From Ectothiorhodospira sp. BSL-9 (GTDB lineage: Bacteria; Pseudomonadota; Gammaproteobacteria; Ectothiorhodospirales; Ectothiorhodospiraceae): a stretch of DNA of 64,000 nucleotides. The notes below the pieces were generated by a model. The model ran no database searches. It saw nothing but the letters and a program-made list of their open reading frames with translations, and was not told where the DNA came from. Each line of letters starts with the position of its first letter. Position 1 is the first letter of the stretch. The stretch lies in the NCBI RefSeq assembly GCF_001632845.1, contig NZ_CP011994.1, forward strand, positions 372,001-436,000. The letters are read 5' to 3'. Both the position numbers and the translations under genes were made by a program. This document shows, one piece after another, positions 16,118 to 25,507 of the stretch.

Positions 16118-16177
16118 AGCGAACGAACCCGCTCAAGGGAAACCATTCACGCCCAGACCACCCCGGGAAGATTCACC

Positions 16178-16588
16178 ATGCGTGCCCCCCGAACCTATCT
16201 CGATCCCACGATGCTGGACCAGGCGCGACGACTGGAAGCCATGACCCAGAGCGTGCGCACGCTGCTGCCGCCGGGGCTGCGGGATCATTGCTGGGTGGGG
16301 AACATCAAGGACGGCGTATTGATCCTGGTGACCGATTCCGGCACCTGGGCGCATCAGTTACGCTACATGCAGCGGGAGGTGCTCAAGCAGATGAAGGCCT
16401 ACCACGGCATCAGCGCTCGATCCGTCAAGATCCGCGTGCGCCCGGTGATGCAGGCCTTTACGCCACGCCCCGGCAAGCCGCTACCCCCGCTCAACGAGGA
16501 CGCCCGCGAGGCCCTTTCCCGGGCCGCGGATTCAGTGGAGGATCCGGAACTGAGGAAGACCCTGCGTCGCTTTGCAACGCAGGGCTGA
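16178..16588 (+). CDS. DciA-like helicase-loader / DUF721 protein
   Basis: A 136-residue protein with the DUF721 pattern: a central segment with LPPGLRDHCWVGNIKDGVLI and WAHQLRYMQREVL, followed by an I-x-V-x-P turn (KIRVRP). DUF721 members (DciA) load the replicative helicase DnaB in bacteria that lack DnaC. The location between secA/M23 and lpxC is the usual one for this family in gammaproteobacteria. It converges on lpxC with an 11-bp gap. Confidence 0.85.
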   Translation: MRAPRTYLDPTMLDQARRLEAMTQSVRTLLPPGLRDHCWVGNIKDGVLILVTDSGTWAHQLRYMQREVLKQMKAYHGISARSVKIRVRPVMQAFTPRPGKPLPPLNEDAREALSRAADSVEDPELRKTLRRFATQG

Positions 16589-17675: not shown

Positions 17676-17695
17676 CCCGGCGCCGGGGGTACCCC
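17676..17695. repeat. Two overlapping perfect palindromes downstream of ftsZ
   Basis: A 12-bp perfect palindrome (17676-17687, CCCGGCGCCGGG) overlaps a 10-bp palindrome (17686-17695, GGGGTACCCC) in the ftsZ-lpxC gap. They could form a very stable GC hairpin in the transcript after the ftsZ stop, but there is no U-run. The role is unknown. Confidence 0.4.
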
Positions 17696-21161: not shown

Positions 21162-22992
<1,831 letters not shown>

Positions 22993-22996
<4 letters not shown>

Positions 22997-24422
22997 GTCA
23001 CCCCCCCTTGCACGCCCAGGGCTCGCGGCAGGCTGGCGGACAGGGCGCCCACATTGCCGGCGCCCTGCGTGAGCAGCACATCGCCATCCTCGAGAACGCC
23101 CTTGAGGGCCTCCACCAGGCGCTCCGGGGCGTCCACAAAGACCGGGTCCACCCGTCCACGCACGCGGATCGCCCGGGCCAGGGTACGGCCATCGGCGCCC
23201 TGAATGGGCTCCTCGCCCGCCGGATAGACCTCCAGCAGCACCAGGGCATCGGGCTCGGACAAGGTTTCGGTAAAGTCCTCGAACAGGTCCCGGGTACGGG
23301 TGTAGCGATGCGGCTGGAAGGCCAGCACCAGGCGGCGGTCCGGCCAGGCGGCACGGGCGGCGGCCAGGGTAGCGGCCACCTCAGTGGGGTGATGACCATA
23401 GTCATCCACCAGCAGCACCTGGCCGTTGGCGGTTTGCAGCTCGCCATACACCTGGAAACGACGCCCGATACCCTGGAAACCCTGCAGGGCCCGCTGGATG
23501 GCCTCGTCACCGACCCCCAGTTCGTGGGCTACAGCCACGGCCGCCAGGGCGTTGAGCACGTTGTGACGCCCAGGCAGGTTCAGGGTGACCGGGAAGCCCG
23601 TATCCCGCCCCGGCAGATGCAAAAGGAAATGGGTACGGGTGCCATTGGCCCGCACCTGCGTGGCCCGCACATCGGCTGGATGCTCCACCCCGTAGGTGAG
23701 CATGGGGCGCCCAATACGGTCGATCAGCTGGCGGATCTGGTCATCATCCACGCACAGCACCGCCAGACCATAGAAAGGCAGGTGATGCAGGAACTCCAGG
23801 AAGGCGTCCTTGAGCCGTGTGAAATCCCCCTCATAGGTCGCCAGATGGTCGGCATCGATATTGGTGACCACGGAAATCATGGGTTGCAGGCACAGGAAGG
23901 AGGCGTCGCTCTCATCGGCCTCCGCCACCAGGTAACTGCCCTGCCCCAGCCGGGAATGGCTGGCGGTGCTATTGAGGCGCCCGCCGATGACGAAGGTTGG
24001 GTCCAGCCCCCCTCGGCCAGCAGACTCGCCACCAGGCTGGTGGTGGTGGTCTTGCCATGGGTGCCGGCCACGGCAATGCCATAACGGAACCGCATCAGCT
24101 CGGCCAGCATCTCGGCGCGGGCCACCACCGGGATGCGCCGCTCGCGGGCCGCCCGCAGCTCAGCGTTGTCCGGATGGATGGCACTGGAGACCACCAGCAC
24201 ATCGGCGCGGGCCACATGGGCAGCATCATGGCCCCGATGCACATCCACCCCCAGCTCTTCCAGGCGCCGGGTGACCGCATTCTCGGCCATATCCGAGCCA
24301 CTGACCTGATACCCCAGGTTGGCCAGCACTTCGGCGATACCGCCCATGCCCGAGCCGCCGATACCCACGAAGTGAATACGGCGGATGCGGCGCATACCGA
24401 TCATGGCAGTGGGTGCATTCAT
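22993..24422 (-). CDS. murC: UDP-N-acetylmuramate--L-alanine ligase MurC, interrupted by a one-base frameshift
   Basis: Adds L-Ala to UDP-MurNAc. The first 5' frame (from ATG 24422) reads MurC normally through GIGGSGMGG and the P-loop [12 protein letters not shown] up to LLAEGG. It then loses homology and stops at 23877. The downstream frame continues exactly with [14 protein letters not shown] and [10 protein letters not shown] through the C-terminus at 22993. The break is at the G run 24007-24012 (six G on the coding strand; seven would restore one 476-residue protein). The context G GGG GGC is also a canonical -1 slippery heptamer. MurC is essential, so either the base is missing from the data or it is recoded. 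ATGA overlaps join it to murG and murB. Confidence 0.93.
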
Positions 24423-25507
24423 TGCCCGTCACCTCCTCGCGCCAGGGCCTGACAGGCCTCTGCCACCCGCCGGGTCGCTTCGGGATGGGCCAGGGAGCGG
24501 GCCTTCTCGGCCATATCCAGCAGTCGCGGACGGGTCATCGCCCCCAGTCGCGCCGCCAGTTCTTCGGGATTGAATTCTGTTTGCGGCACCAACCAGGCCG
24601 CGCCAGGATCGGCCAGATAGCGCCCATTGGTGCGCTGATGGTCATCCACCGCATGGGGATAGGGCACCAGCAGCGAGGCCACGCCGGCCGCCGCCAGTTC
24701 GGACACGGTCAGGGCACCGGAGCGGCAGATGACCACGTCGGCCCAGGCATAGGCCTCGGCCATATCCTCGATGAAGGCGTCTACCCGGGCCTCCACATCG
24801 GCGGCCTGATAAGCCGCCCGGGCCTGCTCCACGGTACGCTCGCCCGCCTGATGGCGGATCAGGGGACGTTCTTCCCGGGGCAGTCGCGCCACGGCCTCGG
24901 GCACGCAGGTGTTCAGGGCCAGGGCCCCCAGGCTTCCCCCCACCACCAGCAGGCGTAGCCGCCCTTCCCGACCGGCCATGCGCTGGGCGGGGGCCGGCAG
25001 GCGCAGGATCTGTTCGCGCACCGGGTTGCCCACGGTCACCGCCTCGTGACGGGCGGCGAAGGTATCGGGAAACGCCTCCAGTACCAGATCGGCGGGGCCC
25101 GCCAGCCAGCGATTGGTCAGACCCGCCACGGCATTCTGTTCATGGATCACGAGGGGGCGTCCCAGGGCCGCAGCCATCAGCCCACCCGGACCGGAGGCGA
25201 AACCGCCCAGTCCCAGCACGGCGCGAGGCTTGAGGCGCATGAGCAGGGCAAGTGCGGCCCAGAGGGCCACACCCACACGCCATGGGGCCAGCAACCAGGT
25301 GCCCAGCCCCTTGCCGCGCAGGCCGCTCACCGGCAGCGTGTGAAAGGGGATGCCAGCCTCGGGCACCAGCCGGGCCTCCAGGCCACGCGCCGTGCCGAGC
25401 CAGCAGACCTCTTCCCCCTGGGCCTGAAGATGGGCTGCCACCGCCAGCCCCGGGAAGACATGCCCACCGGTACCTCCGGCCATGATGAGGATGGGACGCT
25501 GGCTCAT
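24419..25507 (-). CDS. murG: Undecaprenyl-PP-MurNAc-pentapeptide GlcNAc transferase MurG
   Basis: Peripheral inner-membrane glycosyltransferase (GT28) that converts lipid I to lipid II. The N-terminal glycine loop [16 protein letters not shown] is clear, as is the second loop [10 protein letters not shown] and the UDP-GlcNAc site [17 protein letters not shown]. 362 aa. It overlaps ftsW upstream and murC downstream by ATGA-type junctions. Confidence 0.97.

Follow-up and report, generated by a model that had tools for sequence, protein, structure and literature searches.

In the 64,000-nucleotide stretch of the Ectothiorhodospira sp. BSL-9 genome analysed here (contig NZ_CP011994.1, positions 372,001 to 436,000; hereafter the window), the gene murC for UDP-N-acetylmuramate--L-alanine ligase occupies two reading frames that meet at a run of six Gs. 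We are almost certain that the split is a one-base under-count of this G/C run in a long-read-only assembly and not a new form of decoding. Most likely the strain carries an intact, single-frame murC, as its relatives do. The PacBio consensus would have counted the run one base short, and this under-count would both split murC on paper and leave a run that resembles a -1 slippery site by arithmetic. An earlier note on this DNA, made from its letters, had named a homopolymer error as the likeliest cause; that view is now supported by an assembly reported as PacBio only, by a run of seven Gs in both of the closest relatives and by two further broken genes.

On the minus strand, frame 0 reads GCC GAG GGG GGC TGG and then loses homology, running through WTQPSSS into a stop that closes an open reading frame (ORF) of 181 residues; on the plus strand, positions 24007-24012 hold exactly six Cs. 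The -1 frame picks up at 24006 with LDPTFVIGG, and the more than 300 residues credited to it by the earlier note come to 337, up to a stop codon that ends at 22993. Both pieces are recognisable parts of one enzyme. The N-terminal piece corresponds to positions 1-127 of the TIGR01082 profile. The C-terminal piece corresponds to positions 154-447 when taken from the GTG at 23928, the first ATG, GTG or TTG in its frame, and to positions 126-447 in the genome-wide profile search. Pfam assigns Mur_ligase to the N-terminal piece and Mur_ligase_M plus Mur_ligase_C to the C-terminal piece, and solved MurC structures match the latter (6cau, E 7e-122).

The murC profile was searched against 58 genomes, the assembly itself (G000) counted. 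A match was found in 57 of the 58, over the cut-off in 56; matches were partial in G010, G022 and G044, G040 had a match below the cut-off only, and G054 had none. All nine other genomes of the same genus (G001-G009) have murC over the cut-off in a single open frame. We fetched 110 relative loci, made up of the 30 best of the 58-genome search and 80 among the matches listed in another search; 109 are distinct (L023 and L037 cover one and the same locus). Every one of them crosses the junction in one frame. None of the 110 shows the split arrangement, and the shift site is not conserved; in 13 of them six or seven Gs stand within a continuous murC frame. The five genomes with partial, sub-threshold or absent matches lie outside this set, and of these G022 alone was inspected. 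Its murC is also broken (L144, G022:C14:1-4500, at about 2606), and we rejected it as a case of a shared trait because the break is a two-N assembly gap.

The earlier note had proposed comparing the run in close relatives as a check, and where the assembly has six Gs the two nearest, G007 and G009, carry seven. The substitutions around the run tell the same story. In genes under selection, differences between relatives concentrate at third codon positions. Compared with G007 within 240 columns, substitutions counted in BSL-9 coordinates fall in the three phases as 0, 0 and 10 left of the run and as 3, 20 and 1 right of it; in G007 coordinates the counts are 0, 0 and 10 left and 1, 3 and 20 right, with no shift. 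Against G009 they are 2, 3 and 23 left and 4, 16 and 3 right in BSL-9 coordinates, and 3, 23 and 2 left and 4, 16 and 3 right in G009 coordinates. For both relatives, the main substitution phase changes across the run only when counted in the coordinates of BSL-9. Codon by codon, the N-terminal piece differs from G007 by 28 synonymous and 5 nonsynonymous changes in 136 codons and the C-terminal piece by 34 and 7 in 338, and this comparison with G007 gives no sign of decay in the C-terminal piece.

The genome is a single contig of 3,550,080 bases. A genome-wide family search for a backup copy of murC found no second MurC; the sole one is the gene in two pieces. Four other places were matched, all under the cut-off of the family. 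The strongest, at C1:2301763, spans the whole MurC profile yet stays under the cut-off and is probably Mpl; the three weaker ones are probably other Mur ligases.

Nothing about the run is out of the ordinary except the frame break there. Six-G words occur 57 times in the window on both strands, fewer than in dinucleotide shuffles (mean 192), and these matches are spread over 47 G/C runs at least six bases long, among them the murC run. The G6 run does fit the -1 slippery pattern, as the earlier note had observed: the heptamer G_GGG_GGC is present in the murC frame and follows X_XXZ_ZZN. However, whenever GGG GGG C loses one base, G_GGG_GGC is what remains, so that the match to the motif is no independent evidence for recoding, and a -1 slip recovers the frame because the arithmetic of a one-base loss demands it.

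The sequencing history points to the same cause. According to the genome announcement of BSL-9, PacBio reads were assembled with HGAP v2 (about 300x); reads of another kind are not mentioned (PMC5064118). A close precedent is Streptomyces albus SM254, assembled with HGAP v3 at 262x and polished with Quiver, which retained 205 indels, G or C homopolymers being the site of nearly all of them; in 7.17 Mb this is one per 35 kb (PMC4832174). Both are high-coverage long-read HGAP assemblies of G+C-rich DNA in which runs of G or C differ by a single base. They differ in the version of HGAP and in the means of detection, which was Illumina reads for SM254 and comparison with relatives here. The murC break, then, sits in a homopolymer, differs from the relatives by one base, comes from a platform prone to such errors and has company in other genes broken alike.

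This company was found by aligning 504 kb of the BSL-9 genome (14%) with 551 kb of G007, which gave 411,461 aligned BSL-9 bases; alignments of <=1000 bases or <=84% identity and run differences of >1 base were left out. A stop-to-stop ORF comparison (tblastn) was replaced by the substitution-phase test because antisense ORFs and gene ends gave many false breaks. The phase test in turn marks gaps as broken when they are clustered, compensated or intergenic; we counted as breaks the uncompensated single-base gaps in recognisable genes, judged by eye. Among G/C runs of at least six in either genome (n = 126), 117 are of equal length, seven are one base shorter in BSL-9 and two are one base longer. 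Three of the seven shorter runs break a gene, as read from the translations: murC, rluD and a gene for a family-5 peptide-binding protein. The rluD gene (23S rRNA pseudouridine synthase; C1:366626, L137:14626), 5.4 kb before the window, loses its frame close to the start, where a G/C run has five bases against six in G007, whose counterpart protein is over the RluD family cut-off; the automatic label for this gene was 'other', since its flank extends into the next gene. The peptide-binding protein gene (C1:201685, L148:9685) is split at a five-base G run, again six in G007, where the counterpart carries PF00496 and extends over 671 codons stop to stop. The other four shorter runs comprise a non-coding G run just past ftsZ (window position 17685; five here, six in G007), one that precedes the start of a protease gene taken for lon, and two outside any recognised gene. 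As to the two longer runs, the one at 480071 has no coding phase, and an aligned block ends at the one at 303025. In the aligned stretches we saw no gene of G007 disrupted at a G/C run of this kind; the one automatic 'broken' label for G007 falls on a three- or four-base run that precedes a gene start. The candidate rate, seven in 411 kb or one per 59 kb, is an upper bound because some of these may be real differences.

Several points weigh against an under-count. We infer, rather than see directly in the reads, that the reads or consensus, and not the DNA, are short by one base. The 117 of 126 runs that agree with G007 mean that the consensus is mostly right. The 7-to-2 bias in direction is weak alone (one-sided binomial 0.09), and G/C runs of length four go the opposite way, eight being longer in BSL-9 and one shorter; four of these eight were inspected, of which three immediately precede the start of a gene and one could not be placed. 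SM254 is richer in G+C than BSL-9 (73% versus 63%). Finally, essential wall genes can be hit in earnest: mraY and ftsI are frameshifted in wall-less laboratory L-forms of E. coli, in which murC carries only missense changes (PMC10600066). The weight for an error is placed on the three genes broken alike and on the platform, not on the bias in direction.

If the six Gs are real, ribosomes could produce full-length MurC by a -1 slip on G_GGG_GGC, as programmed or corrective recoding, which we consider very improbable. Of this alternative, raised in the earlier note, the heptamer in the correct frame stands, and a slip there would yield AEGG-LDPTF; otherwise it is poorly supported: the motif class is weak, no stimulator was found and the arrangement is absent from all fetched loci. 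The closest known case of this kind is programmed -1 frameshifting on X_XXZ_ZZN (Sharma et al. 2014, PMC4066793). The heptamer pattern and the frame are the same; in contrast, the murC site belongs to a weak motif class, has no stimulator that we could find, is not conserved and is unneeded in relatives. With a strong pseudoknot in E. coli, shifting of more than twice the background was reached by 61 of 64 heptamers, the three named exceptions not including G_GG.G_GG.C. However, GGN codons are less prone to shift than UUN and AAN, and a ZZN that mixes purine and pyrimidine, as GGC does, is worse; G_GG.G_GG.U without a stimulator gave 0.018%, at the low end of the range. G_GG.G_GG.C also falls outside the 21 search motifs of that study, which were picked by efficiency and mostly also by under-representation (PMC4066793). 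At a low level, G runs are documented to permit compensatory frameshifting (PMC5009743).

Downstream of the run the RNA folds much like shuffled sequence, and no stimulator was found in fold z-scores of +0.88 (81 nt), -0.42 (61 nt) and +1.12 (26 nt), from a model that takes in neither pseudoknots nor upstream elements, and G007, which needs no shift, folds slightly better over a similar 80 nt (z -1.60). The hairpin that the earlier note had put about 45 nt downstream does exist, but it is 43 nt away and occurs in G007 as well. An essential enzyme would hang on a weak shift site. Among the titles listed in literature searches on murC frameshifts and on programmed frameshifting in essential genes, none names this locus, and a search on BSL-9 with peptidoglycan found nothing. 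That an essential wall ligase is made only by -1 slippage, through a recent, lineage-specific corrective recoding, is something we hold to be very unlikely.

A real deletion in the culture, with murC broken in some or all cells or with the two pieces acting as separate polypeptides, has in our view only a slender chance. It would take the assembly as it stands, the GTG at 23928 could start the second piece, and the L-form frameshifts described above offer a precedent. MurC is, however, essential in walled bacteria, and the genome search turned up no second copy to stand in for it. The split comes just after GTHGKTTTT, which we take to be the ATP-binding motif, and a start at 23928 would lose 26 residues, including the conserved LDPTFVIGG block, from a second piece that is itself without sign of decay. 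Nowhere does the announcement of BSL-9 describe the strain as wall-less (PMC5064118).

Slippage of RNA polymerase at a genuine G6, by which a fraction of the transcripts would encode MurC, we regard as scarcely credible: with 47 G/C runs of at least six in the window alone, it would disturb many genes, and the bacterial cases known to us use longer A or T runs.

Table 1. The murC locus of Ectothiorhodospira sp. BSL-9, in window coordinates.
Feature	Position	Strand	Basis
murC (UDP-N-acetylmuramate--L-alanine ligase), two frames in the assembly	22993..24422	-	ORFs; TIGR01082 on both pieces; Pfam
Frame-0 ORF, 181 aa; MurC-like as far as the G run, then out of frame	23877..24422	-	
Other 337 MurC residues (LDPTFVIGG onwards), -1 frame	22993..24006	-	
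Six-G run at the frame break; seven Gs in G007 and G009	24007..24012	-	
6-bp hairpin CCAGCC/GGCTGG, 43 nt past the run; same hairpin in G007	23946..23963	-	

The gene is flanked by ORFs at 24419-25507 (murG) and 22094-22996 (murB); these names, and the assignment to a dcw cluster, are our assumption from sequence and gene order rather than the outcome of a profile search. Elsewhere on the contig, a short repeat like AAAAAAGGGGACAGACACCTTTT, or parts of it together with its reverse complement, was seen at C1:368140-368220 (L137, about 16140-16220), C1:437728 and C1:534001.

Were the run truly six Gs long, it would come as a surprise that an essential enzyme relies on a weak frameshift site. With an under-count as the far more probable cause, murC, rluD and the gene for the peptide-binding protein in this reference genome should be regarded neither as lost nor as recoded.
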